A stretch of 24,714 nucleotides of DNA from a virus: positions 1 through 24,714 of IMG/VR virus record IMGVR_UViG_3300029953_000151; one strand, given 5' to 3'. Every line of letters begins with the position of its first letter. Positions within the stretch are counted from its first letter, which is position 1. A program made the position numbers and the translations under genes. Under the pieces are notes generated by a model. That model saw only the letters and a program-made list of their open reading frames with translations. It did no database searches and was not told where the DNA came from. Below, piece after piece: positions 4,073 to 21,926 of this stretch.

Positions 4073-4087
4073 GTCCAAATTTTGGAC
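4073..4087. repeat. Intergenic palindrome copy A
   Basis: GTCCAAATTTTGGAC: perfect 7-bp arms GTCCAAA/TTTGGAC around a single central base. It ends 16 nt before the ATG at 4104, with the ribosome binding site GAGGAGG between. It is one of six related sites in the window (7556, 7834, 16913, 20045, 21912). The form is that of a dimeric DNA-binding protein operator. Confidence 0.85.
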
Positions 4088-4103
4088 TGAGGAGGAATCG
4101 GTT

Positions 4104-4550
4104 ATGAGTATCACGGAGAAATTCTCAAATTTGTTGTTTTCGGTAACGGACGCGGGAAGGGAACTCAAAAGCCAGCGTGACCGACTGATTTTCTTGATCG
4201 TTAGAGTGCGAGACCAGTACGTGAAATTCGGCCTCTTATCTCCGAGCGTCGAAGAGGAAGTTGATACTGTTATCGACGACATAAGAGGGGAACTCCCACG
4301 CAAGGCCAGAAAGGTTCTTGAGGACAACAGTTACTCCTCTAAAGATCACCACCTTCTCCCTCCTGCGGACTACAAGAAGCTAGTGGAGGATAACGACATA
4401 CTTCGATCAGCCAATGAGATATTGGTCTTATCCAACACAAACCTCCGTCATTCAAACGACCGCCTGTATTCTCTTGTTGAAAAAATGAAAGCGGAGAAGT
4501 TTGCAGCGCCCCAGCCGGAAATCAAACCAGAGGAAGCGCCCAGCGTATGA
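4104..4550 (+). CDS. Coiled-coil hypothetical protein, 148 aa
   Basis: The start lies behind GAGGAGGA and 16 nt after palindrome copy A, so this gene may be individually controlled. The N-terminal half is helical and basic. Residues 95-130 (EDNDILRSANEILVLSNTN and beyond) have the heptad-like Leu/Ile pattern of a coiled coil with many Asn. The C-terminus is Pro/Glu-rich. Its stop overlaps the next start (ATGA), linking it to the terminase small subunit candidate. It could be a terminase partner or an unrelated accessory protein; no family is recognised. Confidence 0.65.
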   Translation: MSITEKFSNLLFSVTDAGRELKSQRDRLIFLIVRVRDQYVKFGLLSPSVEEEVDTVIDDIRGELPRKARKVLEDNSYSSKDHHLLPPADYKKLVEDNDILRSANEILVLSNTNLRHSNDRLYSLVEKMKAEKFAAPQPEIKPEEAPSV

Positions 4551-5146
4551 GCAAGGCACTCGCCAAGAGGGGGAAGACCGACGCTCGTCACCTGATGCGC
4601 TACATCAAGTCGAAGGTGATGGACCCGGCCGCGATAGCGAAGGCGGAGCACGTCTCGCTGGCAACAGTGAAGGATTCGATCAGGTCGATCGAGATGTACG
4701 AGAACCAAAACAGCGAGGGCCAGTTGCAGTTGGCAGTTCGGGATCTGGTGATCTCGACCATCCCCCAGGCGAAGGAAACGATCAATGGGTTACTCACCTC
4801 CACCGAGCTTGTGATGAAGAAGAACCTCAAGACCGGGAAGGACGAGTATGTGACGGTGGAGGACAAGACGACGCGGCTCGAGGGCGCACGGTTGGTGAGG
4901 GATTTGATTGTTGGGTTGCAGCCGAAGGGGCCAGGAGTGGTGGTGAACGCCAACCAGACGAACCAGACGGCGAACATCGGAAGCGCGGAGACCTACGAGG
5001 AAAGACTTCGCAGACTCAGGGAGAAGGTTAAGGAGTTCAATCTTCTCCCTGCCGAGGTGACAGCGGTCCCCGACAGCATCGATGCCCCAGACAATGACGA
5101 CGACGGAGATGGCGACGACGACGACGACAAGGATGGGTATGAGTAA
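4547..5146 (+). CDS. terS: Probable terminase small subunit, 199 aa
   Basis: The small terminase recognises phage DNA and regulates the packaging motor. The call rests on position directly before the large subunit (TAATG overlap) and on a helix-turn-helix-like segment at residues 27-50 (AAIAKAEHVSLATVKDSIRS), typical of the DNA-binding end. A helical middle (60-110) could form the oligomerisation core. The C-terminal tail is extremely acidic (Asp-rich, residues 180-197), which may contact the large subunit or keep the protein off DNA. The start overlaps the upstream stop (ATGA) with only a weak GAGGA site, so coupling is likely. Family membership is inferred, not proven. Confidence 0.72.
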   Translation: MSKALAKRGKTDARHLMRYIKSKVMDPAAIAKAEHVSLATVKDSIRSIEMYENQNSEGQLQLAVRDLVISTIPQAKETINGLLTSTELVMKKNLKTGKDEYVTVEDKTTRLEGARLVRDLIVGLQPKGPGVVVNANQTNQTANIGSAETYEERLRRLREKVKEFNLLPAEVTAVPDSIDAPDNDDDGDGDDDDDKDGYE

Positions 5147-7296
5147 TGGGTATTCGTCGTGGCAACCCTCACTTAGAGGAGATTATCGAGGTTTTGGATA
5201 TGCACCTCCAGAAGTACGGAGGAAACCAGTCTAAAGCCAGGGATTACCTTCAGAAAGAAGACAGCAAATGGATAGACGATGAAATCTTCCACTGCATGAC
5301 CAACACAAGATATTTTCTATCAAACTACTACGCTATCAAAACGGAGGATGAGGGGTTCAAGGGTCTGTACCCGTTTTGGGATTCTCAGGAGTTGCTACAC
5401 GACGAATTCAGAAAACTGGAGAAGAAGAATGGTCGTGTGAAGGCAATCGTCAATAAAGCTAGACAGATGGGCGGTTCCACTTATGTCAGTGGGGAGTTGT
5501 TTCATAAGACGATTTTCTCCGAGCATGTGAATACAATTGTGGTGGCTCAAGACGCCAAGCAAAGCCGGTTCATTCTCGATATGTATGCTGCGGCAATCGA
5601 CTTCCTTCCGTGGTGGATGCGCCCAAGAATCCGTTATCAGGAGGCCGGATCGTTTATTGATTTTGATGAAAAAGATGAGACGCAGAGGCTTCTTCGTCCA
5701 GGTCTCAAGACTCGCCTCTATGCCGACAACGGGAACAAGCCGACCGGGGCCGGAAGAGGACAGACGTTTGGTCGGGGGCATTTGGATGAGTTGGCGTTTT
5801 GGGTTGATCCTGAAACCCTAACGGAATCCTTGTTTCCTACGATGAACTCATTAGACGGATTCTATGTAATGATTTCGACTCCGAGAGGGCGTAATACTCC
5901 GTGGCATAATCTATGGAAGTCCGCGGAGTCGGGGGATATTGATTGGAGCCCAATCTACATACCATTCTACAGAAGAGAAAAAACATACTCTATTCCACTG
6001 GCGAAAGGGGAAATCTTTGTACTAACAGAAGAAGAGGCGTTGCTTCGAGATCAGATACTCAAAGACGAGAAGTTTTTCATCAAAGACGAGGTGCTAAACT
6101 GGAGGAGAAAAAGCATAAAAGCGTTCATCGACACACATGGAGATGATAAAAAATTCAATCAGGAATACTCAGCCAAATCTGAGGACTCATTTCAATCCTC
6201 TGCCCCAACTGCATATCCACTGGGAATCATCAACCGACTCTCAAAACTTACAAGACCACCACTGTACATAGGGGAGATAGAATACGACTTCGGTATCGGA
6301 AGACCAAAACCTAGACTCAGGAAGGTAGAACAGAACCAAAGAATAAGATACCCCAAGAGGGAGGATAGGTTCCATGTATGGGAGTTTCCAGAGGTAGGAG
6401 CATCTTATGTTGTAGGCGTGGATGTCAGCCTCGGAAATGGAGGGGATTACTCTTGCTGCCAAGTTCTGAAACTCAGCGAACTTGTACAGGATAAACAGGT
6501 GGCTTGTTGGCATGGGTACATCGATCCCGAATCACTCGCAGAAGTCGTGTTTGCGATTTGCTGGATGTATAACGAGGCTCTGGCGGCGATTGAAGTTAAT
6601 TCGATGGGAATATCCACGAACAATAGGTTGGTGAGAGGGTACGAGTACGAGAATCTTTACCGCTACAAGCACCTCGACAAGATGACTCGGTGGATGACAG
6701 ATACCATTGGATTCTGGACAACCGATAAAACGAAGAGAGCGTTGATGTCTAAGATGTCGAAGTCTCTTGTTGATAAATCCATTGACATTCCAGACAAGTT
6801 CACGGTGGACGAGTTTTATGATTTCACTGAGGCTGGAGCAATGGATGGACACGATGACTACATGATGGCTCTTCACATCGCTCTCTACTGCGGCCATGAG
6901 AACGAGTACCGCGAGATGCGGGAGGGGACGAGCCAGCAAGAATCGACGAAGCAGAAAAACGAATTCAAGGTGTTGGACAGGTTCGGTACAATCGTTCAGA
7001 CGACGAATTCTCAACAGGAAGCCGAGCGGGTGTCAAAGAAGAACATCGGCAGCAGCATTGTGAGGGAATCGGGAGCGACAGCGATCGTCAATCTGAAGGG
7101 GGTCGGGAAGAGGCGCGTTCCTAGTGATTTCCAAAACAGCGACTATAGTCCTGTGTTTGACGGGACGGGTACGGCGTCCAAGATGTACGAAGAAGGAATA
7201 GCGCCGGAGGAGATAACCCCGGAAGCGATCGCGCTGTACGAGGCCGAGATGGAAGAAGCGGAGTCGGACGATCAGAACGCATGGCTTTATCAGTAA
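5146..7296 (+). CDS. terL: Terminase large subunit, 716 aa
   Basis: This is the ATPase-nuclease motor that pumps DNA into the prohead. The ATPase shows a Walker A-like ARQMGGST (residues 105-112), a Walker B HLDELAFW (212-219, Asp214-Glu215) and the coupling motif STPRG (244-248). The RNase H-like nuclease has its acidic residues in GVDVS (Asp426), AIEVN (Glu483) and GHDDYMMAL (Asp570/Asp571). The linker KFNQEYSAKSEDSF (337-348) is typical. About 130 residues follow the nuclease, with a Gln/Glu-rich tail, making it longer than many large terminases. The start overlaps the small subunit stop. The stop is followed by AAAGGAGGGG for the next gene. No key residue is missing. Confidence 0.95.
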   Translation: MGIRRGNPHLEEIIEVLDMHLQKYGGNQSKARDYLQKEDSKWIDDEIFHCMTNTRYFLSNYYAIKTEDEGFKGLYPFWDSQELLHDEFRKLEKKNGRVKAIVNKARQMGGSTYVSGELFHKTIFSEHVNTIVVAQDAKQSRFILDMYAAAIDFLPWWMRPRIRYQEAGSFIDFDEKDETQRLLRPGLKTRLYADNGNKPTGAGRGQTFGRGHLDELAFWVDPETLTESLFPTMNSLDGFYVMISTPRGRNTPWHNLWKSAESGDIDWSPIYIPFYRREKTYSIPLAKGEIFVLTEEEALLRDQILKDEKFFIKDEVLNWRRKSIKAFIDTHGDDKKFNQEYSAKSEDSFQSSAPTAYPLGIINRLSKLTRPPLYIGEIEYDFGIGRPKPRLRKVEQNQRIRYPKREDRFHVWEFPEVGASYVVGVDVSLGNGGDYSCCQVLKLSELVQDKQVACWHGYIDPESLAEVVFAICWMYNEALAAIEVNSMGISTNNRLVRGYEYENLYRYKHLDKMTRWMTDTIGFWTTDKTKRALMSKMSKSLVDKSIDIPDKFTVDEFYDFTEAGAMDGHDDYMMALHIALYCGHENEYREMREGTSQQESTKQKNEFKVLDRFGTIVQTTNSQQEAERVSKKNIGSSIVRESGATAIVNLKGVGKRRVPSDFQNSDYSPVFDGTGTASKMYEEGIAPEEITPEAIALYEAEMEEAESDDQNAWLYQ

Positions 7297-7306
7297 AGGA
7301 GGGGAT

Positions 7307-7555
7307 ATGCCAGTTATGCTTAGGATGCAAGAGAACCCGATGAACCTCAAAAGAACCGTTGTGGCTACTTTTGATGAATTTGCAGAAAAATACACGACAG
7401 AATCGATTTGCAGAGAGATCGTCGAGAAAATATCCAACCAGTACGTGAAGGAGAACTATCAGCGGATTGTTTCTGCGATTGGAGATGAATCTGTTCTTGA
7501 CGCAGTAAGTCAAGCGGTACGCGAGAAGGTGAAACAAATTCTCGAAACGAAGTGA
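7307..7555 (+). CDS. Hypothetical protein, 82 aa
   Basis: A strong ribosome binding site (AAAGGAGGGG) directly precedes the ATG, 10 nt after the terminase stop. The product is almost all helix, charged and soluble (many Val, Glu, Lys, Ile), resembling a small oligomeric helical bundle. No family is recognised. Palindrome copy B starts right at its stop codon. Confidence 0.65.
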   Translation: MPVMLRMQENPMNLKRTVVATFDEFAEKYTTESICREIVEKISNQYVKENYQRIVSAIGDESVLDAVSQAVREKVKQILETK

Positions 7556-7570
7556 GTCCAAATTTTGGAG
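7556..7570. repeat. Intergenic palindrome copy B
   Basis: GTCCAAATTTTGGAG: 6-bp arms TCCAAA/TTTGGA around one base, differing from copy A only in the last position. It begins immediately after the stop of the 82-aa gene and ends 17 nt before the ATG at 7588, upstream of the ribosome binding site AAGGAGG. Confidence 0.85.
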
Positions 7571-7587
7571 AAAACAAGGAGGAGAGG

Positions 7588-7830
7588 ATGAAAGAGATTG
7601 GGATTTGGCAGCACCAATTCGACGAGATTTTCAGGAAACTTCCCCCGCATAAGAGAAAACTTCCCGATCCACAATATCGGGTGGGTCAGTTGTCAATGCA
7701 AATTGGCGACGAACTTATTGTGTTTGTTGACAGACATCTGGTCTGCGGAGAACTTAAACCTCAATTTATGCCAGTGCTTGATCTGGAAGTAGATGAGGCC
7801 GTTAGAAAAGAGATGCAGACGAATTACTAA
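7588..7830 (+). CDS. Hypothetical protein, 80 aa
   Basis: The reading frame is open back to a GTG at 7552, but that would translate through the palindrome. The ATG at 7588, behind AAGGAGGAGAGG, is the real start. The product has a basic N-terminal helix (EIFRKLPPHKRKLP) and then strands (ELIVFVDRHLVCGEL), like a compact alpha/beta domain. No family is recognised. It is flanked on both sides by palindrome copies, so it may be regulated separately from the terminase operon. Confidence 0.62.
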   Translation: MKEIGIWQHQFDEIFRKLPPHKRKLPDPQYRVGQLSMQIGDELIVFVDRHLVCGELKPQFMPVLDLEVDEAVRKEMQTNY

Positions 7831-7833
7831 CCA

Positions 7834-7848
7834 TTCCCAATTTTGGAG
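7834..7848. repeat. Intergenic palindrome copy C (degenerate)
   Basis: TTCCCAATTTTGGAG matches copy B except at the first and fifth bases. The right arm TTTTGGAG is intact and the left arm has one mismatch. It lies 3 nt after the previous stop and ends 16 nt before the ATG at 7865, the same spacing as copies A and B. This common spacing supports it as a true member. Confidence 0.7.
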
Positions 7849-7864
7849 TTAGAGGAGGAAAAAG

Positions 7865-8131
7865 ATGAAACTGAGCGAGATGCAAATGGGGTTCGGAAGT
7901 ACATGGTGGGGACTCGACAAGCCAAAGATACTTGCCGGAAAGAAAGCCGGTGAGTATTTCAGGAGACAGTTGAGGACCAGATTCAGCCCAGGATACGAAA
8001 CTTTTAACGGAGTAGAGATACAAGACGATGATTCTCTACCAGACGATTTGATCCGGTTTGTGGCAACTGGGAATGGATCACACGCAGGAGAAACATACGA
8101 CGTAGTTATCGAGGAGGAGAAAAATGGGTGA
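7865..8131 (+). CDS. Hypothetical protein, 88 aa
   Basis: It starts behind AGAGGAGG, 16 nt after palindrome copy C. The N-terminus has Gly/Trp residues (GFGSTWWGL), then a basic helix (KAGEYFRRQLRTRF) and an acidic C-terminal half ending in EEEKNG. No motif identifies it. It overlaps the next gene by 8 nt, so the two are probably translated together. Confidence 0.62.
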   Translation: MKLSEMQMGFGSTWWGLDKPKILAGKKAGEYFRRQLRTRFSPGYETFNGVEIQDDDSLPDDLIRFVATGNGSHAGETYDVVIEEEKNG

Positions 8132-8348
8132 AAAGAAGTTGTACGCTGTTCGACCAAAGGACACGCCTGGAGGGTTTATAGGTCTAACAGAATGCGCCGA
8201 AGTTGAAGTATCTGAAATATGCCGTGAGTGCTGGAATAGAGGGGTTATCTGGCATGTGCATGGAGATATTGAGGAGCATCGTGGTTCCGATTCGTTTAAG
8301 AAGAATCGGATAACAGGAAAAGATGGTTTTGCAAATCTAACGATCTGA
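8124..8348 (+). CDS. Hypothetical protein, 74 aa
   Basis: The start lies within the end of the previous gene behind GAGGAGGAG. The middle holds C-x2-C with nearby histidines (ICRECWNRGVIWHVHGD, residues 32-48), which could bind a metal. It is short, soluble and of no recognised family. The next gene follows after 11 nt with its own strong ribosome binding site. Confidence 0.6.
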   Translation: MGEKKLYAVRPKDTPGGFIGLTECAEVEVSEICRECWNRGVIWHVHGDIEEHRGSDSFKKNRITGKDGFANLTI

Positions 8349-8359
8349 GGAGGAGAAAG

Positions 8360-8995
8360 ATGCCAGTATTGAAGACGGAATTTAGTTGCCCCAAGTGCAA
8401 GCGTGAGACGGGCAAAGCGAACCAGATTTCAGCCGCCGAGGGCAGGTTGGTCTGCCCAGCTAATTCAAACCACAGATGGGAAGACACGGTGGCTTTCTAC
8501 GCAGATGGTCCGCAGATGGAGTTCAAGGTAGAACCAGCCAAGTTCCCCCCGGTGGAGGGACAGGCGCCAATCACTCTGAAGATTCCTCTCCGGATCAAGA
8601 CGGAACTGGCGGCTCGGTGGGGGACGGACGAGGCGGTTTCAGCCAAGGTTTCGGACGTGCTTTTGCAGTTGGTAGACGGTGACGTAATGATTGTCGGGGA
8701 GACGGACATGAACCGGCTTTCCGAGCGGCTGGGCCAAAAGTTTGCAAATTCCAGTGAACTTGTTGGCGTGGTATGGGCTAAGATGTGTAAAGTGGATGAG
8801 GCCAAGGCTGAGGCTACGGCGGCCATGGAAGACCTGAAGGCATACGAGAGCCGTTCACCGGGGCGGGTTGTGGTAGACCTCGGTGACCAGTACGAGGCCG
8901 CTAAAGACAAGGCGAAGAACTCAGAGCCTCCCATGCCCCTCAAGGTGTGGGTTGAGGATCGGATTCAGATGGTCATTCGAGAGAACTGGGTTTAA
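8360..8995 (+). CDS. Hypothetical protein with N-terminal zinc-finger motif, 211 aa
   Basis: It starts behind GAGGAGGAG. Residues 10-38 form a C-x2-C ... C-x5-H arrangement (CPKC at 10-13, Cys32, His38), typical of a small zinc ribbon. A Pro-rich linker (55-70), a beta-rich centre (PITLKIPLRIK and VDGDVMIVGE) and a helical C-terminal half follow. The position directly before the portal suggests a packaging or head-related role, but the ribbon could equally mean nucleic-acid binding. The portal ribosome binding site overlaps its stop. No family name is assigned. Confidence 0.65.
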   Translation: MPVLKTEFSCPKCKRETGKANQISAAEGRLVCPANSNHRWEDTVAFYADGPQMEFKVEPAKFPPVEGQAPITLKIPLRIKTELAARWGTDEAVSAKVSDVLLQLVDGDVMIVGETDMNRLSERLGQKFANSSELVGVVWAKMCKVDEAKAEATAAMEDLKAYESRSPGRVVVDLGDQYEAAKDKAKNSEPPMPLKVWVEDRIQMVIRENWV

Positions 8996-9007
8996 GGACG
9001 GTCCAAG

Positions 9008-10840
9008 GTGATAGAAGACTTCCCGGAGATAAGGCCGAAGCCGGACGAGGACGACAAACGAACCACCTCGCGCCGGGAGTATTACACCCAACTCAACGAC
9101 TGGTGTGATGCGGCCGTAGAGGAAGGGACAGCCCTTCAAGAGAACGTCCCCGAACTCAAGGACATTCAAAACGCCCTCGACTATCTGGTAGGGATGCAGT
9201 GGAAGGATGCCATGCCTTCCTACCGGGCGAAGCCGGTATCCAATGAGTTCCTGTCGATGTTTTGGGAGACGATTGGGCTCATCACGGATATTCGTCCCAC
9301 CTCTCACATCGTCGATATAGCCAACGACGGAAAATACTCTGACATTCAGAAGATTCTCAACAACCTCAACAAAGGGTGGGTATCGACCTCCGGGTACGAG
9401 CGCCGGATGGCGTTCTGCATTATGTGGGCGATGTTCACTTCGGCGCCGGCCAAACTCTATTGGAATCCGTTTGCTAGGGGAGACAGCGGAGATCCCGAAG
9501 ATGGAGACTTGGCGCTTGAAGCCCTGCCGCCAAGCTCGATTCTGCGGTTGGGGATGGGCGACGACCTTCAGGAAGATGAGTGTGTTGTCTACCGGAGGAT
9601 GCGGACGCTGGCGTGGATTCGGCGGGCCTACCCGACAATGGGAAAGTACGTCCAAGCCGAAGAGACGAAAAGCCGGTACACGATTGATGTTCAGAGTCCC
9701 ATCGGGGTCAGCCCGCAGTTGTATCCCCCGTTATCGCCGGGTATGAAGAGACTCTTGGGAGCCGGGGACAAGACCTCCTATGAAAGCAACTTCCCCCAGG
9801 CCGAGGTGCAGGAGTTCCATCGGAAAGACGATTCGATCAATGAAGGCCGCGAGCAAGTTTGGATGGGGCCGAAGGGGGCTGCATGGGGATATTGGGTCAA
9901 GCCGGGAAAGAAACTGTATCCCCGCGGCAGAATCTTCATTCGCTCTAACCGAGTGACGCTGTACGATTATCCTTCCCCCTACTACCACCGCAAGAAGCCT
10001 TTTGCCTCACTCGGGCTCTATGGAGTCCCGTGGCAGCAGTACGCATTGAGCGTAGTGAAGCCGTGGATGAGCCAGCAGGATATTCTCAACCAGATGATGT
10101 CGGGGATGCTTCAGACGGTGAAGAAGGCCATCAGTCCAGCCCTGATGGCGGCCAAGAGCGCAATCAATCCGGCCGCAATGAAGGCGATCGACAGTTCCAA
10201 GCCGAACCTGAAGATCACCTACAGCCAGAACGCCCCACATCCTCCTTCGTGGCAGGCGCCCCCAGTTCTACCCACCTACGTCTTGCAAATCTACACGCAG
10301 ATCCTCCAGTCGATGAAGCAGAGTTCCGGCGCCTCGGCCGTGGGAGATGCTCTTGGGAAGAAGCAGGTTCCTTCAGGAGACTCCCTCGACAAGATCCAGA
10401 TGGCAAAAAACACGCCAATCCGCGTGATGGGCCGAAGCGTCGAATGGTTCAATGACGACATTGGCCAGCAGTGGGTCGCGGATGCTTTGCAGTTCTATGA
10501 TGCGGGTCGCAGGATGGAGTTGCTTGGAATGGCCGGGCTCACAAAGGAAGACATGGACGACAGGCCGGGGTCGTTGATCCCGGACGGCATTCAGTCGGAG
10601 TCGTTTGTAAGAAGGTTCCACTTCAGAACAGAACGTGGAACGCTACTCCATGTTGAGCAGCAGGAACGTCTCCCCATCGCCTTCCAACTTCGCAAGGGGC
10701 GTGATCTGTCGAGGAGGCAGGTATTCAAGATTCTGAAGTGGAACATCAACGAGCAGGAGAACAATGAAGAGTTGAAGGAAGAGGCCGCGGCGATGGCCCA
10801 AGCTCAGGCCGGCGCACCACCGAAGGGCGGGCACAAGTGA
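9008..10840 (+). CDS. Portal protein, 610 aa
   Basis: The portal forms the dodecameric ring through which DNA enters and leaves the head. The call rests on length, on order (terminase, portal, scaffold, capsid), and on the pattern of podovirus-type portals. That pattern is an N-terminal region with Trp/Tyr-rich helices (ALDYLVGMQW), a wing region (200-340) and a long helical stem segment (PWMSQQDILNQMMSGMLQTV). After it comes the Gly/Ser/Pro loop before the long crown helix (QSSGASAVGDALGKKQVPSG). The C-terminus is Ala/Gln-rich and basic. The start is GTG behind AAGGA, right after the upstream stop. Its stop overlaps the GTG of the next small gene. No break is seen. Confidence 0.9.
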   Translation: MIEDFPEIRPKPDEDDKRTTSRREYYTQLNDWCDAAVEEGTALQENVPELKDIQNALDYLVGMQWKDAMPSYRAKPVSNEFLSMFWETIGLITDIRPTSHIVDIANDGKYSDIQKILNNLNKGWVSTSGYERRMAFCIMWAMFTSAPAKLYWNPFARGDSGDPEDGDLALEALPPSSILRLGMGDDLQEDECVVYRRMRTLAWIRRAYPTMGKYVQAEETKSRYTIDVQSPIGVSPQLYPPLSPGMKRLLGAGDKTSYESNFPQAEVQEFHRKDDSINEGREQVWMGPKGAAWGYWVKPGKKLYPRGRIFIRSNRVTLYDYPSPYYHRKKPFASLGLYGVPWQQYALSVVKPWMSQQDILNQMMSGMLQTVKKAISPALMAAKSAINPAAMKAIDSSKPNLKITYSQNAPHPPSWQAPPVLPTYVLQIYTQILQSMKQSSGASAVGDALGKKQVPSGDSLDKIQMAKNTPIRVMGRSVEWFNDDIGQQWVADALQFYDAGRRMELLGMAGLTKEDMDDRPGSLIPDGIQSESFVRRFHFRTERGTLLHVEQQERLPIAFQLRKGRDLSRRQVFKILKWNINEQENNEELKEEAAAMAQAQAGAPPKGGHK

Positions 10841-11007
10841 GTGATTCTGACATCAGTAAGAAGGTAGCCGAGCAGGAGATTCCGAAGATTCTAGCTGCGA
10901 TCCAGTCCGCGATCGAGGCGAAAAAGAAGTGGACACTCGTAGTCGAGGGCAGCGACAACGGGGGAATCTTGGACATTCAACTTACGCAGAAGAAGTCGTT
11001 CAAGTAG
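10837..11007 (+). CDS. Small hypothetical protein after the portal, 56 aa
   Basis: A 56-codon frame starts with GTG in a GTGA overlap with the portal stop and is therefore likely translated by coupling. The product is a charged helix (KKVAEQEIPKILAAIQSAIE) followed by a strand pair (KWTLVVEGSDNGGILDIQLT), a sensible small alpha/beta fold. It ends only 3 nt before the stop of the antisense endonuclease gene. Small genes between portal and scaffold are common in phages. Function unknown. Confidence 0.6.
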   Translation: MSDSDISKKVAEQEIPKILAAIQSAIEAKKKWTLVVEGSDNGGILDIQLTQKKSFK

Positions 11008-11010
11008 GGG

Positions 11011-11523
11011 CTACCCAAAACAGACAAAGTCTCCATGACACGCCGCTGCCGTGTAGCAATATGCAAGGTAAGCCTCATAGCTTGTCTTGTAGTAGCCAAG
11101 AGACTTATTCTTTCCATTTATTTTGATTTGCGCTCTCCACAATTTGCATGATTGGACATAAGATACCCCTTTGTATCCGCTAGAATTATCCAATCTTTTC
11201 CCTTGATTATGCTGTTGATCGTGCTTGTCTGACAGACGGATGTTTTTATCGGTATTATCGAGAGTTCGATTGTGGTCAACGTGATCTCCCTCAATCGGAT
11301 TTCCGTAATTTAACCCAAGAAAATCGCGGTGCATATAGATCATATAGCGATCTCCATTAGGGAGAACGTCCATTCGTGCAGCGTAAAATTTCCTAGAAAG
11401 TCTATTCCAGTGCGCAAACCACTTAAAATGAATTGCACGATCGTACCGATGAGGACTAACGTAGCAAATCTGACCCTTTGTTAGCTTGATAATGCGGTAT
11501 TCTACTTGGGGTGGGGTTGTCAT
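11011..11523 (-). CDS. HNH homing endonuclease with AP2-like DNA-binding domain, 170 aa
   Basis: Homing endonucleases cut DNA that lacks their gene and so spread it by repair. Residues 78-96 carry the HNH core (GDHVDHNRTLDN, with His81, His84 and Asn94 of NIR). Residues 115-160 match the AP2-type tail (SGYKGVSYVQSCKLWRAQI, then LGYYKTSYEAYLAYCYTAA). The start has AAGGAG 6 nt upstream. It lies antisense to all head genes, between the portal-linked gene and the capsid-side genes, with only 3 nt between convergent stops. Its base composition is more AT-rich than its neighbours, as expected for a recently acquired free-standing element. It is intact as read. Confidence 0.9.
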   Translation of the reverse strand: MTTPPQVEYRIIKLTKGQICYVSPHRYDRAIHFKWFAHWNRLSRKFYAARMDVLPNGDRYMIYMHRDFLGLNYGNPIEGDHVDHNRTLDNTDKNIRLSDKHDQQHNQGKRLDNSSGYKGVSYVQSCKLWRAQIKINGKNKSLGYYKTSYEAYLAYCYTAAACHGDFVCFG

Positions 11524-11625
11524 GAATCGCTCCTTCTAAGCGGTTTTGGCCTCGCCGGGGCAGCAACCCCGACAACCCCATCATACCCCCTCTACAATAA
11601 AAATCAACATCCATTCATTTTCCGC

Positions 11626-11654
11626 TTGACGAAGTTCTTTGAACGGATAATGAT
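11626..11654 (+). promoter_or_regulatory. Candidate sigma70-type promoter upstream of the head genes
   Basis: TTGACG (11626-11631) and AATGAT (11649-11654) are separated by 17 nt, in an AT-rich pocket after the endonuclease gene. A GATAAT word also lies at 11646-11651 but at too short a spacing. The predicted transcript would start near 11661 and meet the hairpins and terminator at 11675-11732. Confidence 0.4.
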
Positions 11655-11660
11655 TGCGGT

Positions 11661-11733
11661 AGAGGCAAGTGAAAGGACCACTGAGAAATCAGCCCGGTCC
11701 AATCGGCCGCATCCTTAGGGGTGCGGCTTTTTG
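11661..11733 (+). ncRNA. Candidate small RNA or attenuated leader
   Basis: Between the candidate promoter and the terminator lie about 70 nt that fold well. GGACC (11675-11679) pairs with GGTCC (11696-11700), enclosing CTGA/TCAG closed by a GAAA tetraloop (11685-11688). The terminator hairpin then follows at 11706-11732. This is the architecture of a short structured RNA or of a leader whose termination controls entry into the capsid operon. The ends are estimates. Confidence 0.35.
11706..11732 (+). terminator. Rho-independent terminator
   Basis: A 9-bp stem, GCCGCATCC (11706-11714) with GGGTGCGGC (11719-11727) containing one G-U pair, has a TTAG loop and is followed by five T (11728-11732). 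It separates the portal/endonuclease segment from the capsid-side genes on the + strand. Confidence 0.7.
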
Positions 11734-11854
11734 CGTCTAGGGTCCACGAATCCTTCCCGTGGAGCAACCCTGGTTGGAGGACCGCCTTCGAGCAATCGAG
11801 GGTCAAAACCCAGGCTGAAGGCCGCAAGGCTGAAGGCCGGAAAGGATCTACCCA

Positions 11855-11914
11855 ATGGCAAAGCGTGGCAAGGGCCGGAAGCACAAGGGCGGACGCAAGT
11901 CGGGCCGCAAGTAA
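11855..11914 (+). CDS. Tiny highly basic peptide, 19 aa
   Basis: A 20-codon frame starts 8 nt after AAAGGA. Ten of 19 residues are Lys or Arg, plus one His, with Gly between. Its end (GGRKSGRK) closely resembles the end of the 50-aa basic protein at 16418-16570 (GGRKSSKR). That similarity plus the ribosome binding site argue that it is translated. It is preceded by a 13-nt direct repeat (AGGCTGAAGGCCG at 11812-11824 and 11827-11839). It may bind DNA or RNA non-specifically. It is very short, so it could also be a remnant of a longer gene. Confidence 0.4.
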   Translation: MAKRGKGRKHKGGRKSGRK

Positions 11915-11939
11915 TCAGGGCAACCTGAAGGCAGTGAAC

Positions 11940-11965
11940 GAGGGGCGGTAACCACTCCGCTCCTC
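11940..11965 (+). other. Intergenic hairpin
   Basis: GAGGGGCGG (11940-11948) pairs with CCGCTCCTC (11957-11965), nine pairs including one G-U, with an 8-nt loop. It lies in the 77-nt gap before the 65-aa gene at 11992. No T-run follows, so it is not a classical terminator. It could be a processing or stability hairpin. Confidence 0.4.
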
Positions 11966-11991
11966 CACAACATCGCAAGGGGAGCAACCCG

Positions 11992-12189: not shown

Positions 12190-12192
12190 CTT

Positions 12193-13778: not shown

Positions 13779-14747
13779 ATGCTAACCTGGAACGACGTAA
13801 GCGGCAAAACGAACGACTTGATCGTACCGATCATCACCGACAACGTGTTCAAGTCTTCGCCGGTATTCACCCGCCTCCGCAAAAAGCGGAGATTCGCATT
13901 TCCCGGCGGCTTGACCATTCGCCACAACATTATGTACGCGCCGCTGAAGGGCGGGTTCTTCCAGCGCGGCCAAGCCTTCGACACCTCGGCGGTGCAGACA
14001 GACACGGCGCTTCAGCTCAACCTGAAGTACGCCTACGTCAACATGACACTGTACGGCGTCGATCAAGTTCTCAACCGCGGCACCGAAGCGGCCATGAGCT
14101 ACGTCTCCTCGAAGATGGTCAACTCTTCGGGATCGATGGCTCAGATTCTCGGAACTTCGGTCTTTGGCGACGGCCAGGGTACGGTTACGTCCACACTGGA
14201 GCTTGACGGCTTCAAGGCCGCAGTTGACAGTGGGACAAACTATGCCACCTACGGCGGCATCACCCGGTCGGACATCTCCAGTTCGGCGAATGCTGGCATC
14301 AACTCCTACTATGCGGCGCCGGCGGCTTTCAACCTGTCAGTCATCCAGACGGCCTTCGGGGCAAGTTGGTTTGGGCAGGAGAAGCCGGACATGCTGGCGA
14401 CGACCCAGCCGGTGTGGGATGCTTTCTGGAACAAGCTCCAACCTCAGCAAAAGTTCAATGACGAGACCTCCGATGTGCATGTGGGGTTCAAGTCGTTCAA
14501 CTGGAACGGTGCTCAGGTGGTGGTTGACCAGTACCTCGCCACCAATGGAGGAGCGTACACGATGTTTGGGTTGAACACCAACTACATCTACCTGTACGTC
14601 TCCGACGTGCCGAAGTACCAGTTCGGTTTCACGGGCTGGAAAGAGGCCCAGAATACCGATGATGTCGCTGGGCAGTATATGTTCGGCGGCAACATGGTGG
14701 TTGCGGCGCCCCGTTTGATGTTCCAAGAGGCATTCTCCGCCCTGTAA
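13779..14747 (+). CDS. Major capsid protein, 322 aa
   Basis: The shell protein of the head, probably of the HK97 fold. Evidence is position after the scaffold and family-like features. These are an N-terminal segment with a basic stretch (RLRKKRRFAFPGG, residues 32-44), a long beta-rich body and an Ala/Gly-rich helix (TEAAMSYVSSKMV). Late phrases PDMLATTQPVWDAFWNKL and PQQKFND (residues 206-230) are typical of capsid proteins of this type. A weak ribosome binding site (AAAGG) precedes the ATG. It ends in a hydrophobic strand (MVVAAPRLMFQEAF). No break is seen, and it is followed after 24 nt by a virion-type gene. Confidence 0.88.
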   Translation: MLTWNDVSGKTNDLIVPIITDNVFKSSPVFTRLRKKRRFAFPGGLTIRHNIMYAPLKGGFFQRGQAFDTSAVQTDTALQLNLKYAYVNMTLYGVDQVLNRGTEAAMSYVSSKMVNSSGSMAQILGTSVFGDGQGTVTSTLELDGFKAAVDSGTNYATYGGITRSDISSSANAGINSYYAAPAAFNLSVIQTAFGASWFGQEKPDMLATTQPVWDAFWNKLQPQQKFNDETSDVHVGFKSFNWNGAQVVVDQYLATNGGAYTMFGLNTNYIYLYVSDVPKYQFGFTGWKEAQNTDDVAGQYMFGGNMVVAAPRLMFQEAFSAL

Positions 14748-14771
14748 TCGGGCTGAAAAGAGGAAACGGCA

Positions 14772-15410
14772 ATGGCATTTCTCAATCCATCGAATCAACT
14801 CATCCAGATCGACACTGGGAGTGTGCTCACGTACTGCTGGAACCCATCGGCTTCGCCGATCTCGGTTTATGCGAACATCGGAGAGATTCAGACTCTTGGG
14901 CAGAGGTACGTGGGTGTCACCAACGCCACGGCAGCCAACCCGGCCGGCTCTCCGGCGATCTACGTGTTGGCGAAGTACCTTTCGACATCAGCGACCACTC
15001 TGGCGAACTGGCAGACGGCCAATGCGCCGGCTCCGGTCTACTGGACCGACAACACGTTCACTACGGTCACGGGTATCACGACTGAAGGTATCGGCGGAAC
15101 GACTCTCGGGTTGAACTTCCCCGCCGGCTATCTGATGGTCAACTACGCATCGGCGCCGAAGTTGACACTGGCGCAGTTGCTTGGCGGCTACGTGTTCGTG
15201 CAGGTGGCAGGCTACCTCAAGGGCGCCTACTGCTCGGGAACGTCCCACCCCGGTATCGGATCGACAGTGGTTCCTCTGGCGGGTATCTTCAGTTCTGATA
15301 CCGTTGCAGAGGGAACAGCCTCTACCTACTCTCAGCCCTTGGGCCGTCAGCTTACCGCGCTGGTAAGCACCAACTACTGCGACGTTCTCGTTGGCAGCGA
15401 CAATTTCTAA
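14772..15410 (+). CDS. Probable virion structural protein, 212 aa
   Basis: A beta-rich, Thr/Gly/Ala/Ser-rich protein with few charges, typical of head decoration or minor capsid proteins. The start is behind AGAGGA, 25 nt after the capsid stop. The N-terminus (NPSNQLIQIDTGSVLTYCW) and the Gly-rich C-terminus contain many short strands and no membrane helix. Position just after the capsid gene supports a decoration or cement role, but no specific family is recognised. Four cysteines are spread over the length. Confidence 0.65.
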   Translation: MAFLNPSNQLIQIDTGSVLTYCWNPSASPISVYANIGEIQTLGQRYVGVTNATAANPAGSPAIYVLAKYLSTSATTLANWQTANAPAPVYWTDNTFTTVTGITTEGIGGTTLGLNFPAGYLMVNYASAPKLTLAQLLGGYVFVQVAGYLKGAYCSGTSHPGIGSTVVPLAGIFSSDTVAEGTASTYSQPLGRQLTALVSTNYCDVLVGSDNF

Positions 15411-15422
15411 CCGGAGGGCATC

Positions 15423-15758
15423 ATGGCTTACGTAATCACAAAACAGCCCGACGGCGATGTGAGCCTGGGGAATTTGAACGGCGAGATTGTGTCGCTGTCG
15501 GATTCCATCTCAGACTACGCCACTGGCGGGTACGCAATCACGGGCGGAGAGGCATACAACGCGAACTCCAGTCTGACGATCAACTGCGATCTGTGGCGCA
15601 TTCTGACGGTGCTTCCAGTCAGCGGGCAGAACGGGTATCAGCCTGTCTGGAATTCCACCACGCAGAAGCTCCAGATGTACAGCAGCGCCAACACGGAGGT
15701 CACCAACGGAACCGACCTCTCGGGGTTCGTGTTCTATCTCTTGTTGATCGGGTACTAA
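15423..15758 (+). CDS. Probable small virion protein, 111 aa
   Basis: It starts behind CGGAGGG, 12 nt after the previous stop. The composition is again beta-rich (Ser, Thr, Gly, Asn, Tyr). Its C-terminal phrase (GYQPVWNSTTQKLQMYSS ... LSGFVFYLLLIGY) resembles small phage head proteins encoded next to the capsid gene. The hydrophobic end (FVFYLLLIGY) is too short for a confident membrane span and more likely an interior strand. A decoration or cement role is inferred. Confidence 0.65.
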   Translation: MAYVITKQPDGDVSLGNLNGEIVSLSDSISDYATGGYAITGGEAYNANSSLTINCDLWRILTVLPVSGQNGYQPVWNSTTQKLQMYSSANTEVTNGTDLSGFVFYLLLIGY

Positions 15759-15781
15759 GCCCTGCGGGGCAATCACCGGGG

Positions 15782-15811
15782 GGCCGCTCTTCAATGGGGC
15801 GGCCTTTCGTT
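15782..15811 (+). terminator. Probable terminator after the capsid genes
   Basis: GGCCGC (15782-15787) and GCGGCC (15799-15804) form a perfect 6-bp stem with an 11-nt loop, followed by TTTCGTTTG. A weaker GCCC/GGGC hairpin lies just upstream (15759-15770). The T-run is interrupted, so partial termination is the more likely outcome, lowering expression of the downstream basic protein genes. Confidence 0.5.
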
Positions 15812-15825
15812 TGTAGGAGGATGTC

Positions 15826-16212
15826 ATGTACGGATACGCATACGGGTTTCTTCCAATGCGGTTGCTCGACAATAACGGCGATAGTGGTGGAAGTAACTCC
15901 GATACCAACGCGGCAGCGCGTCGTCAAGGGAAAAAGGACGATGAGCGTTCCATAGCGGCTCAGATGTCGTCTATGGGAAGGCAGTTGAACGAGAATTCCG
16001 CGGCGAGGGCAGAAAGCATTCGCCCGGTCCAGTACCGGAAGGGCGGCAAGGTCCGCAAGACGGGCCGAGCCATCGTCCACAAGAATGAGCGCGTAATCCC
16101 TGCCAGCAAGCGCAAGAAGGCCGAGAAGGTCATGCGGAAGGCCGGGATGAAGCTGACCAACAAGAAGCGCGGGAAGAAGCGGAAGGCGGGGCGCTCGGGC
16201 GGGAGGTCGTAA
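15826..16212 (+). CDS. Small basic virion-type protein, 128 aa
   Basis: A strong ribosome binding site (TAGGAGG) precedes the ATG. The N-terminal 60 residues are Gly/Asn/Ser/Asp-rich. Residues 70-92 carry the phrase YRKGGKVRKTGRAIVHKNER, a GGkVxkTGxAxVHxxErV pattern I recall from phage tail or virion proteins. The last 35 residues are heavily Lys/Arg-rich (KKRGKKRKAGRSGGRS). This suggests an internal, nucleic-acid-contacting virion protein. It is the first of three consecutive basic genes with stop/start overlap (TAATG) to the next. Confidence 0.62.
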   Translation: MYGYAYGFLPMRLLDNNGDSGGSNSDTNAAARRQGKKDDERSIAAQMSSMGRQLNENSAARAESIRPVQYRKGGKVRKTGRAIVHKNERVIPASKRKKAEKVMRKAGMKLTNKKRGKKRKAGRSGGRS

Positions 16213-16415
16213 TGCCGCTGATCGAATCCACGTCGAAGGAAGCGACTCGGAAGAACTTCGAGGAGCTAGGCCGCGGGAAGACGTACAGCCGCACGAAGAA
16301 GAAGGGCGGCAAGCGCAAGGCTGACAAGCAGCGGATTGCGATCGTCCTCAGCAACAAGAGGAAGGCCCAGGCGAAGCACAGCAAGCGGTTTAAGGGCCGC
16401 AAGAAGGGAAGGTAG
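16212..16415 (+). CDS. Small Lys/Arg-rich protein, DUF6496-like, 67 aa
   Basis: The start overlaps the previous stop (TAATG), with GGGAGG upstream. 25 of 67 residues are Lys or Arg. The pattern MPLIESTSKEATRKNFEEL, then a basic linker, then KQRIAIVLSNKRKA resembles the short phage protein family known as DUF6496 (recalled, not searched). The end is almost pure basic (KHSKRFKGRKKGR). It is probably DNA-binding inside the capsid or during packaging, but this is inference. Confidence 0.62.
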   Translation: MPLIESTSKEATRKNFEELGRGKTYSRTKKKGGKRKADKQRIAIVLSNKRKAQAKHSKRFKGRKKGR

Positions 16416-16417
16416 TC

Positions 16418-16570
16418 ATGGCGACCAGGAAGATGTCAAAGCGTCAGATGGACGATCACGACGACGCTCACTTTGATGGCAACCCGGCGTTCAAGCCGGC
16501 GAAGCGCGGCGGGAAGAAGGCGGCGGCAAGGGGCAAGAAACGTGGCGGCCGGAAGTCGAGCAAGCGGTAG
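16418..16570 (+). CDS. Small Lys/Arg-rich protein, 50 aa
   Basis: A 50-codon frame starts 2 nt after the previous stop. It has 17 Lys/Arg plus an acidic patch (DDHDD) near residues 12-16. The C-terminal half is a Gly/Lys/Arg string (KRGGKKAAARGKKRGGRKSS). This resembles the tail of the 128-aa protein two genes upstream and the 19-aa peptide at 11855. The stop lies 1 nt from the stop of the antisense HNH-like gene. A nucleic-acid condensing or charge-neutralising role is inferred from composition only. Confidence 0.58.
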   Translation: MATRKMSKRQMDDHDDAHFDGNPAFKPAKRGGKKAAARGKKRGGRKSSKR

Positions 16571-16571
16571 G

Positions 16572-16874
16572 TCAGGAGACTGCGTGACGTTTCAAGTGGC
16601 ACTCACGGCACAGCCAAATCACTTCGAGTGGTTTATCGTAATCCTCGTGATGTTTTTGAGCCTTTGGGTTTCCGCAGTCAACGCAAGGTTGTTTCTTCAA
16701 CTGTCCACGTCTCTCGTAAACATTTGCGTAAGACCTGCAAATCATTTTCTTTCGTTGGTCTGGGGTGAGGGGTGTGACTTTACGAAGCTGGCGCATCGCA
16801 GCAGCATGATGCTCTTTGCAATAGCGGCCAGATTTACGGGGCGGATTAGAGCAAAGAGAGCAAGTCGTTTTCAT
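16572..16874 (-). CDS. HNH-like endonuclease / zinc-finger protein, 100 aa
   Basis: Residues 65-98 show a treble-clef type HNH arrangement: CVDC, then HHEDY, PLEVIWLC, and CREC followed by HLKRH. The N-terminus has further Cys/His (CSLC, YCKEHH), suggesting a second zinc site. The pattern HHxDYxxPLxVxWLCxxCH is common in small free-standing phage HNH proteins. The frame extends to a TTG at 16898, but the ATG at 16874 is preferred; neither has a good ribosome binding site. It lies antisense between the basic genes and the connector gene, an insertion typical of a mobile homing gene. Promoter not identified. Confidence 0.72.
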   Translation of the reverse strand: MKTTCSLCSNPPRKSGRYCKEHHAAAMRQLRKVTPLTPDQRKKMICRSYANVYERRGQLKKQPCVDCGNPKAQKHHEDYDKPLEVIWLCRECHLKRHAVS

Positions 16875-16912
16875 AGAACAAGTGTACCACTGAAACAAAC
16901 GTGGAACACTAA

Positions 16913-16927
16913 GTCCAAATTTTGGAG
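16913..16927. repeat. Intergenic palindrome copy D, also acting as ribosome binding site
   Basis: GTCCAAATTTTGGAG lies between the divergent HNH-like gene (minus) and the connector gene (plus). It ends 6 nt before the ATG at 16934. The GGAG in its right arm (16924-16927) is at exactly the right distance to be the Shine-Dalgarno sequence, and there is no other candidate. A protein bound here would block both the promoter region and translation signals. Confidence 0.85.
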
Positions 16928-16933
16928 TAAGTC

Positions 16934-17914
16934 ATGCCTGTCGTAATCACGCAGAATCCGAATTTCCCGATGCAAGTCGGCCCGAACGGAACGCAGGCGT
17001 ATGTCCAATCCCTCAATTATAGGCAATGTATCAACGAGGTCTGCCTCTGGAATCCTGATCTTGACCCGATGATTGCCGGCCGGTTCATCAACAACGCTCT
17101 GCGGGAAGTGGTGGACAGCTATCAGTGGTACGCTCTCAAGGTGCGCGGGAACATCAACATCCCCAAGGTAACGACCAGCGGCACTTGCACACTCACGAAC
17201 GGCAGTAACACTGTACAGGGAATCGGGACGGCGTGGACAAACGCGCTCATCGGGCTGCAATTCCGTGGAGGTTTTCAGGGGCCGTGGCGCACAATAAACA
17301 ACGTCAACGCCCTTGCTCAAACCCTCACGATTGATACTCCATACGGAGGAGCCACTCGGACGGGCGGATACCAATGTCAGGCGGTGTACGCAACGCTCGG
17401 CGCCAACATCAAGTATCTTCTCCACTCGAAGAATCAGAACATGGGATGGCCGATCGAAGTCAACGGCAACCAGGAGACGATCGACGCATGGGATACGTGG
17501 AGGACATCTCTCGGTTGGACGACCTACTTTGCAACGCTTCCCCCGACACCGGATGGGCAGTTTCAGATCGAGATGTGGCCTACACCATACTCTGCCCAGG
17601 TGTTTCCTTTTGAGGCATACATTCAGCCGCCCGACATGGTTCTTGACACCGACTCTCCTCCATCGTTCATCCGGGCCGACGTGCTTGTGCGGAGAGCCAT
17701 CGCCGATGCGAAGATCTTTGGCGGCCGCACCAGCAAATACTACGATCCCACGGTATCGGCTCAGAAAATGGGAGAGTTCAGGACCACTCTTGAGCAGATG
17801 CAGAACGCATCAAATATGCTTGACCAGCAGGACTGCACCTGGGACTATGGGCAAGAAAATGGGCGCGTCGGATTCGGTCCCGGTTCAACTTTTTGTCAAA
17901 ATCATGACTGCTAA
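16934..17914 (+). CDS. Head-tail connector / adaptor-like virion protein, 326 aa
   Basis: The N-terminal 70 residues (INEVCLWNPDLDPMIAGRFINNALREVVDS) are helical in the manner of phage connector adaptors that dock on the portal. The middle is beta-rich with Thr/Gly/Asn (TSGTCTLTNGSNTVQGIGTA, residues 77-96), like an inserted domain. The C-terminal part (PTPYSAQVFPFEAYIQPPDMV, then a helix RADVLVRRAIADAKIFG) again fits a connector. Its position several genes after the capsid supports this. The start uses the GGAG of palindrome D. An alternative is a minor tail protein. The exact family is not recognised. Confidence 0.68.
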   Translation: MPVVITQNPNFPMQVGPNGTQAYVQSLNYRQCINEVCLWNPDLDPMIAGRFINNALREVVDSYQWYALKVRGNINIPKVTTSGTCTLTNGSNTVQGIGTAWTNALIGLQFRGGFQGPWRTINNVNALAQTLTIDTPYGGATRTGGYQCQAVYATLGANIKYLLHSKNQNMGWPIEVNGNQETIDAWDTWRTSLGWTTYFATLPPTPDGQFQIEMWPTPYSAQVFPFEAYIQPPDMVLDTDSPPSFIRADVLVRRAIADAKIFGGRTSKYYDPTVSAQKMGEFRTTLEQMQNASNMLDQQDCTWDYGQENGRVGFGPGSTFCQNHDC

Positions 17915-17969
17915 CAGAATCCACTAGCGACAACGGCTTAGATTCCCCATAATGATTGCAGGAGGTTTT

Positions 17970-18470
17970 ATGACCGAGACAGAAGAGATCGTAGAAGGCG
18001 GGCCGCTGACCTCGTTTGGGGAAGAGGTGAAGGCGGCGGTTGAAGAGAACTGGTTGGACAAGTACCGTGAGGGCGGCCGGCGCCGCGGGGTGCTTTGTGC
18101 GAACCCGGACTGCCGCTGGCACAAGGAAGTGAAGGGCGGGACATTCAACTATTCGGATAGGTATCGCGGGTTTGTTTGCTACGACTGCCTTCACATCCCC
18201 CTGCCTTCGGATTGCATTAACAGGTGGGAGTTCGACACGACTCACTTCAACGGCGAGAGGATTCACGTAAAAGACCGGAATCACCTTGACCTTCTTTGCA
18301 AGCAGTTCGGAGTCAGTAATCATGCCAGAGAAAACGATCGTTCAAATTGGGACACGCCCCCCTCGGTACGGCCGCAGCCAATGAACCCCGAGCTTGAGCG
18401 GATGCTTGGGAAGGCGCGGGAGATGGGCGGCGGTGGCCGCTCTGAGGTATCGGGTGGATGGGAACGGTAG
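17970..18470 (+). CDS. Hypothetical protein with Cys4 zinc-finger motif, 166 aa
   Basis: The frame is open from an ATG at 17952, but GCAGGAGG (17958-17965) sits just upstream of the ATG at 17970, so that start is used. Cys43 and Cys48 (CANPDC) pair with Cys70 and Cys73 (CYDC), a compact zinc knuckle embedded among Arg, Lys and aromatic residues. Residues 30-40 are very basic (KYREGGRRRG). The C-terminus is Pro-rich, then helical and Gly-rich. It may bind nucleic acid. Embedded among connector genes, its own role is unclear. Confidence 0.6.
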   Translation: MTETEEIVEGGPLTSFGEEVKAAVEENWLDKYREGGRRRGVLCANPDCRWHKEVKGGTFNYSDRYRGFVCYDCLHIPLPSDCINRWEFDTTHFNGERIHVKDRNHLDLLCKQFGVSNHARENDRSNWDTPPSVRPQPMNPELERMLGKAREMGGGGRSEVSGGWER

Positions 18471-20019: not shown

Positions 20020-20044
20020 CCCCCTTGACTTACTCGCCTATCCA

Positions 20045-20059
20045 GTCCAAAATTTGGAC
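20045..20059. repeat. Intergenic palindrome copy E, abutting a start codon
   Basis: GTCCAAAATTTGGAC, perfect 7-bp arms, is the reverse complement of copy A. Its last base directly precedes the ATG of the methyltransferase at 20060. No separate ribosome binding site is visible; GGA at 20056-20058 is too close to the start to serve as one. Confidence 0.85.
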
Positions 20060-20701
20060 ATGGGGAAAATCAAAGCATTGGATTTATGCTGCTGCGCTGG
20101 TGGAGTGTCTATGGGACTCCACCTCGCCGGCTTCGATGTGACGGGTGTAGACCTGTCTCCACAGCCTCGGTATCCCTTCAAGTTCATCCAAGGCGATGCA
20201 CTGACTGTAGACCTCGACGGATACGACTTCTATTGGGCCAGCCCGCCGTGCCAGCGGTATTCTGCCGGCGCCGCCAAGTGGGGAACCAGCGAGAACCATC
20301 CTCACATGATTCCAACCATTCGAGAGAGACTACAGGCCACAGGAAAGCCATACGTGATTGAGAACATCGTCCCGGCGGCCGAGTTTCTTCATAACCCCAT
20401 CATGCTTTGCGGAACAATGTTCGATCTTGGAGTATTCAGGCATCGGTTATTCGAGTGTTCTTTTGGCGTTCTTGCCCCCCCCCATTGGCCGCATAAAGGA
20501 AAGATTGGAGACGGGAAGTATTGCACGGTCGTCGGCCATGCGGGAGGGTCGAGCAAGCGGGACGGTTGGAAGAATGGCGGAGTAGGAGAGTGGAAGACGG
20601 CGATGGGGATAGATTGGATGGTTGGAGACGAGCTTGCAGAGTCGATTCCACCAGCATATAGCAGGTTCCTCGCCGAGCAGTTCCTTGCACAAGCGAAGTG
20701 A
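20060..20701 (+). CDS. DNA cytosine-5 methyltransferase (small phage type), 213 aa
   Basis: The motifs of C5 cytosine methyltransferases are present: the AdoMet-binding LDLCCCAGGVSMG (residues 7-19), catalytic SPPCQ (61-65, Cys64), ENI (101-103) and RHR (127-129). The protein is much shorter than bacterial Dcm-type enzymes and has little room for a target recognition domain. It matches a small phage-type subfamily that I recall, with phrases like GVDLSPQPRYPF and VVGHAGG. The frame is open upstream to 19955, but the ATG at 20060 starts the conserved region and abuts palindrome E. It is inserted between two connector genes and may protect phage DNA. A run of nine C (20475-20483) codes residues 139-141. 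Confidence 0.88.
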   Translation: MGKIKALDLCCCAGGVSMGLHLAGFDVTGVDLSPQPRYPFKFIQGDALTVDLDGYDFYWASPPCQRYSAGAAKWGTSENHPHMIPTIRERLQATGKPYVIENIVPAAEFLHNPIMLCGTMFDLGVFRHRLFECSFGVLAPPHWPHKGKIGDGKYCTVVGHAGGSSKRDGWKNGGVGEWKTAMGIDWMVGDELAESIPPAYSRFLAEQFLAQAK

Positions 20702-21630: not shown

Positions 21631-21691
21631 CGGTCAATTCAGTACAGCGTCCAGTTCTCTAAAGGGAGCCTACTCTACTTGAGGTGTTCCC

Positions 21692-21910
21692 ATGATCGGT
21701 TTCTTGATTACGCTTCTCATCGTCTGCTTGATAGCGTCCGTGGCTTGGTGGATTATTTCAGTCATCCCGTTTCCCCCGCCTCTGGCGAGCGCCCGGATTA
21801 TTCTCCAGATAATCGTTGCGGTCATACTTTTAATTTGGCTTGTTTCCGCCTTGCTTCCGTTAGCCGGCGGCGGTTTTGGGATGCACCCGCTGTCTGGGCC
21901 GATCAGGTAG
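21692..21910 (+). CDS. Two-helix membrane protein, possible holin, 72 aa
   Basis: Two hydrophobic helices (about residues 3-24 and 34-56) are joined by a short Pro-rich turn (IPFPPPLASAR). The C-terminus is short and weakly charged. The pattern resembles the small membrane family I recall as Thivi_2564, often seen in phages. A holin role is possible by size and topology, but no endolysin gene is next to it, so the function is open. The start has GAGG upstream. The gene ends 1 nt before palindrome copy F and converges with a minus-strand gene. Confidence 0.68.
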   Translation: MIGFLITLLIVCLIASVAWWIISVIPFPPPLASARIILQIIVAVILLIWLVSALLPLAGGGFGMHPLSGPIR

Positions 21911-21911
21911 G

Positions 21912-21926
21912 GTCCAAAGTTTGGAC
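21912..21926. repeat. Intergenic palindrome copy F between convergent genes
   Basis: GTCCAAAGTTTGGAC has perfect 7-bp arms around a central G. It exactly fills the gap between the stop of the membrane protein gene (+) and the stop of the leftward gene at 21927 (-), unlike the other copies, which lie near start codons. No T-run flanks it, so a simple terminator reading is weak. Confidence 0.85.

Follow-up and report, generated by a model that had tools for sequence, protein, structure and literature searches.

Palindromic sites form a conserved network with clade-specific letters in an uncultured phage group

Among the dispersed repeats described in phages, the stoperators of cluster A mycobacteriophages (L5, Bxb1, TipsytheTRex) come closest in layout to the element treated here, a palindrome in a 24,714-base IMG/VR virus record (IMGVR_UViG_3300029953_000151). 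This record is a phage fragment and is called the window below. Stoperators are short sites, more than 20 per genome, that lie mostly in short intergenic spaces (PMC6550527, PMC9283540). From one related phage to another, the letters of the sites change together with the repressor (PMC6550527, PMC9283540), and repressor bound in these spaces has been proposed to halt elongation (PMC9283540). Each is an asymmetric 13-mer to which a monomer binds, and it works in one orientation (PMC6550527, PMC9283540).

Two further systems invite comparison. In cluster K mycobacteriophages, some genes have repeats near their translation starts, the start-associated sequences (SAS/ESAS); SAS, with the non-palindromic sequence GGGATAGGAGCCC, is found 3-7 bp from starts and is confined to the non-structural half (PMC3203893). 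In the temperate Bacillus phage SPbeta, a 15-bp intergenic repeat called SPBRE is spread over a large genome, where it sits in promoter regions and is bound by MrpR, a tyrosine-recombinase-like protein (PMC10516654).

An initial annotation of the window had reported six copies of a palindrome, GTCCAAA-N-TTTGGAC, and likened their layout to stoperators and SAS with a different sequence. The resemblance held, and the repeat proves to be part of a conserved, clade-specific palindromic site network in an uncultured phage group. Like stoperators, the sites are mostly intergenic; they are slightly fewer, the perfect core occurring 17-20 times in genomes of 79 and 97 kb. Unlike stoperators, they are near-perfect palindromes of 13-17 bp with symmetric flanks, in phages where integrase or ParA was not found among the relatives searched. 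Like SAS, they lie close to the starts of a gene subset; unlike SAS, they are palindromic, of another sequence, mostly 5-18 nucleotides (nt) from starts, and present also at structural genes, before terminators, and inside genes. With SPBRE they share the scattering of an intergenic element over a large phage genome, but no phage-integrase match was found in the relatives and promoters are not enriched at the sites. A literature search for the repeat sequence gave no relevant match.

Within the window, a scan found three exact copies of GTCCAAANTTTGGAC (4073-4087, 20045-20059, and 21912-21926) and two one-mismatch copies (7556-7570 and 16913-16927). Base composition predicts 6.5e-5 exact copies and 2.9e-3 with one mismatch, and 100 dinucleotide shuffles of the window contained no exact match. 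The remaining copy, at 7834, has three mismatches, a level at which chance alone should give the window about 10 matches. Its position fits, but alone it is weak evidence, at chance level. By itself it is not significant. The spacings to start codons given earlier were all reproduced:

4073..4087: palindrome GTCCAAATTTTGGAC, 16 nt before the ATG at 4104; its position is kept 5' of the homologous gene in the relatives G007 and G015
7556..7570: palindrome GTCCAAATTTTGGAG, immediately following the stop codon that ends the 7307-7555 gene, 17 nt before the ATG at 7588
7834..7848: degenerate copy TTCCCAATTTTGGAG, between a stop codon 3 nt upstream and the ATG at 7865, 16 nt downstream
16913..16927: palindrome GTCCAAATTTTGGAG, 6 nt before the ATG at 16934
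20045..20059: palindrome GTCCAAAATTTGGAC, 0 nt before the ATG at 20060 of a C5-methyltransferase gene
21912..21926: palindrome GTCCAAAGTTTGGAC, filling the space that separates the stop codons of two convergent genes

The GGAG of site 16913 is likely the Shine-Dalgarno sequence for the ATG at 16934. Site 21912 resembles a junction copy at position 28976 in the relative G021.

A scan of viral contigs with a 14-base pattern also yielded several relatives of the window. Because a choice made in this way depends on the motif, relatives were chosen by alignment of the terminase large subunit, which is independent of it. Of the 23 records obtained, 16 carry the motif with at most one mismatch, and a mirrored control pattern occurs in one (G029). 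Copies at this level number 16 in G021 (78,982 bases), 7 each in G025 and G023, and 4 in G024. The perfect core, TCCAAANTTTGGA, is present 17 times in G021 and 20 times in G022 (97,230 bases), and permuted palindromes average 0.00. In a census of short palindromes TCCAAA-N-TTTGGA ranks first in both genomes, where the next unrelated palindrome has at most two copies. A second form of the site, TTCC...GGAA, gives 14-18 copies in each of the records G044, G045, and G047 (control 0). Completeness of the relatives is known only indirectly, from a 127-bp direct terminal repeat at the ends of G022, which suggests that this genome is nearly complete. No repeated palindrome was found in distant terminase relatives (24-27% identity) or in Roseobacter phage CRP-7.

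The two forms of the site divide the group into sister clades. Aligned sites read A-GTCCAAA-W-TTTGGAC-T in the window's clade (A) and A-TTCCAAA-N-TTTGGAA-T in the other (B), whose users are the records with about 50% terminase identity. The comparison rests on 54 non-redundant perfect-core sites from clade A and 63 from clade B, in which core invariance exists by construction; when one core mismatch is allowed, every core position is still shared by 58-60 of 60 clade A sites. The left outer base is G rather than T in a ratio of 45:1 in clade A versus 4:46 in clade B (Fisher p 1.7e-21, only indicative because sites within a clade share descent). At the right outer base of perfect-core sites, C:A is 30:0 versus 3:43. 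The flanking A and T are symmetric as well, giving a 13-bp core with symmetric flanks out to 17 bp.

Orthologous genes keep their site at the same spacing while the letters change. Homologues of the 16934 gene have a site 6-7 nt away in G000, G021, G026, and G022, each with the letters of its own clade (GTCC...GGAG in G021 and G026, TTCC...GGAG in G022). Likewise, homologues of the gene at 8360 have one 15-16 nt away in G021 and G015 and in G022, G029, and G030, again in clade-specific letters. Sites also recur in the interval between terminase and the 8360 homologue of relatives, the interval in which site 7556 lies in the window. A change of letters across whole clades suggests a factor acting in trans.

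Placement was examined for 95 non-redundant sites; genes were called with a simple model of our own, so the counts are approximate. Intergenic enrichment is clear: coding sequence makes up 81% of the total, yet 75 sites fall outside called genes. The view that copies are placed at gene starts proved incomplete. A start codon follows 5-18 nt downstream of 43 of the 95 sites (7.6% for random intergenic positions), while 45 have an upstream stop codon at -1 to +6 nt, and about 10 have an intrinsic terminator just 3' of them. Absence from coding regions holds for the significant copies in the window but not for the family, in which 20 of the 95 sites are intragenic. Among perfect-core copies the intragenic fraction is about a quarter (28/117; 9/54 in clade A and 19/63 in clade B).

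One model for such sites is an RNA element, in which an mRNA hairpin between the stop codon and the Shine-Dalgarno sequence controls translation start, mRNA processing, or decay. The many sites shortly before starts agree with it, the GGAG of the repeat is likely the Shine-Dalgarno sequence at several of them, and the repeat can form a stem of 5-7 bp with a 3-nt loop. These hairpins are weak, however (-3 to -6.6 kcal/mol), no covariation of stem bases is seen within a clade, and a search of Rfam gave no match. Double-stranded DNA is preferred to RNA because the outer pair is often non-complementary (G/G, C/C, T/G), because copies occur within genes and between convergent genes, and because no consistent strand bias is seen at the centre base. 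The RNA model is accordingly judged unlikely.

The explanation favoured here, with somewhat better than an even chance, is that a dimeric or pseudo-dimeric DNA-binding protein, most likely phage-encoded, recognises the palindrome in double-stranded DNA, where each genome offers it 17-20 sites. The initial annotation had proposed a dimeric repressor or activator. A genome-wide, symmetric, sequence-specific network conserved in relatives supports the dimeric part, and points to a DNA-binding dimer as the probable reader of the repeat; a promoter-operator layout is unsupported. Most likely, these are DNA sites at which a protein binds and that have an operator- or stoperator-like function. Bound at gene junctions, the protein would block or meter transcription through long co-directional operons in the manner of stoperators, and in some places it would overlap a promoter.

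Another model makes the palindrome itself a promoter element: a polymerase or activator specific to the phage would bind or start there, giving short or leaderless mRNAs that begin at the junctions. Sites just 5' of a ribosome-binding site and ATG do have a layout like that of T7-type promoters, and the methyltransferase copy, which abuts its ATG, shares bases with a promoter-like -10 hexamer (20048-20053), although this promoter match is at chance level. On the other hand, a symmetric site has no direction, no conserved -10 or -35 was found near the sites, and copies also lie between convergent genes, ahead of terminators, and within genes. T7-type RNA polymerase (PF00940) is absent from G021, G022, G045, G047, and G051 by a search that detected its positive control; the model may not cover N4-type enzymes. 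The relatives share one very large gene:

51517-63003 of G021 (L199/L200) and 6893-18379 of G002 (L131): giant protein of 3,828 amino acids

Its product has helicase-type domains (AAA_34, ResIII), and Pfam and PHROG match it to helicase families only, not to an RNA polymerase. Hairpin promoters of the N4 kind, which a virion RNA polymerase reads, seem unlikely on this ground, and the promoter model as a whole appears quite improbable, a little more so than the RNA model. As a separate observation, the giant gene of G021 holds motif copies inside it, at 51650 and 58051.

Several results weigh against the DNA-recognition model. Sigma-70-like promoters, the only promoter type scored, are no stronger at the sites than at control starts (p 0.38), and classical promoter operators were rejected for this reason. 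Phage_integrase, Resolvase (serine recombinase), and AAA_31 (ParA) were found in none of six larger relatives (G021, G022, G023, G045, G047, G051), which leaves the role of a lysogeny repressor unsupported. The layout is closest to stoperators because promoter enrichment, a T7-type polymerase, and lysogeny genes were all not found. The other two points concern the proteins that could bind the site: the known candidates are encoded outside the window fragment, and their recognition helices vary among phages with identical site letters.

These candidates are conserved phage helix-turn-helix (HTH) proteins, present in all larger relatives. An XRE-type protein (b) and a tandem winged-HTH protein (d) occur in G021, G022, G045, G047, and further contigs, and another XRE-type protein (a) occurs in clade B and G021. 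The XRE-type candidate is about 118 amino acids long (118-123) and the tandem winged-HTH candidate about 215. In contigs L341 and L268, a perfect copy of the palindrome lies in the divergent intergenic region beside the XRE (a) gene. AlphaFold models of the two candidates are of modest confidence (mean pLDDT 70 and 68); the XRE model weakly matches the CylR2, SinR, and DdrO folds, and the tandem-HTH model weakly matches MerR-like domains. The search for a phage HTH regulator thus produced conserved candidate binders. Naming the binder by covariation failed, since the recognition helices of both types vary within a clade.

A genome-organising or partition-type site would also be read by a protein, which would cluster as ParB does on parS or fold the nucleoid rather than control genes. 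The sites cover the whole genome and are more evenly spaced than random sites would be in G021 (P 0.001) and, weakly, in G022 (P 0.046), but not in G047 (P 0.49). Such a role does not need the tight fit to gene junctions, and the ParA/ParB pair of such systems was not found in the relatives (AAA_31 in 0/6, no ParB_N above the cut-off). This makes a partition-type site very unlikely. Finally, the palindrome may be a recombination or boundary word that marks the ends of cassettes where accessory genes are exchanged. Site 4073 and the 4104 gene are jointly absent from G021 and G026, and the terminase-to-8360 interval consists of variable genes with sites kept. Against this stand fixed-spacing sites before conserved core genes, sites inside genes, and the whole-genome change of letters between clades, with the trans factor that it suggests; a boundary word is the least probable of these explanations, and only barely credible.

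A host regulon was rejected. In 257 Gb of bacterial and archaeal sequence (84,980 genomes), the 17-mer has 44 matches, about as many as the roughly 60 expected by chance by our own arithmetic, and no multi-copy neighbourhood of note was found. This lack of enrichment argues against a widespread host regulon. A terminase search of genome contigs for a prophage or host gave no match, and no close isolate of the group was found in the collection searched.

The same core is also present in G006, G009/G012, and G010, fragments for which no kinship to the window was detected, and in G013, which is only a distant relative; all were found by the motif scan, so convergence is possible. An example is G010 (L141; IMG/VR 3300044225_001384), an L5-like actinophage fragment of 18,456 bases with 12 copies of GTCCAAANTTTGGAC within one mismatch. 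As in the window phage, several copies lie just before ribosome-binding sites. Unlike those of the window phage, they are flanked by T...A rather than A...T, and the two phages are unrelated by protein comparison. G010 carries integrase and the L5 gp82 and GP88 families, and its palindrome may be a convergence. Fragment G009 (L140) has a second palindrome family around TCTAGA-N-TCTAGA, in 4 copies, besides the TCCAAA palindrome.

Read as protein-binding DNA sites, the network gives an uncultured phage group a regulatory code that is readable from sequence. Two sister clades with the same network in different letters are a natural experiment on the joint change of a protein and about 20 sites, which has so far been studied mostly in mycobacteriophage stoperators. 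A broader proposal, which must be regarded as doubtful, is that phages without detectable lysogeny genes use near-evenly spread palindromic stoperators and their own dimeric HTH protein for whole-genome operon control in lytic growth, and that site letters and protein have drifted jointly from clade to clade. If the network does silence elongation in such phages, stoperator-like control would have no necessary link to immunity.

The window genes beside the sites are as follows:

4104..4550, + strand: gene downstream of site 4073, no PHROG or Pfam match
5146..7296, + strand: terminase large subunit gene, the basis for the motif-independent choice of relatives
7588..7830, + strand: gene for 80 amino acids, downstream of site 7556
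7865..8131, + strand: gene for 88 amino acids, downstream of degenerate site 7834
16934..17914, + strand: conserved structural-module gene downstream of site 16913, 45-84% identity to relatives, weak tail-fibre PHROG match
20060..20701, + strand: C5-cytosine methyltransferase-like gene downstream of site 20045 (phrog_363, E 6e-34; Pfam DNA_methylase E 0.0013, below the cut-off)

Two HNH-type endonuclease genes (11011-11523 and 16572-16898) lie on the minus strand, opposite to the main transcription, and the second is located about 15 bases from site 16913. A homing-endonuclease target was rejected, as relatives keep this site but lack that HNH gene. Just 5' of site 4073 is an intergenic run of 10 G (4053-4062), which is 8, 9, or 10 G long in relatives and so varies between phages. 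A run of 9 C (20475-20483) within the methyltransferase coding region, also 9 in the near-identical L107/L142, is a possible slippage site. The window further contains a PAPS reductase-family gene (22651-23475, minus strand, Pfam E 8e-24), with no homologue found in the compared relatives, and two peptide deformylase genes (2734-3324, plus strand; 22164-22637, minus strand). In G021, an acyl carrier protein-like gene lies at 68899-69138 (PP-binding family, E 5e-16); in contig L341, such a gene near 12367 directly follows a perfect motif copy.

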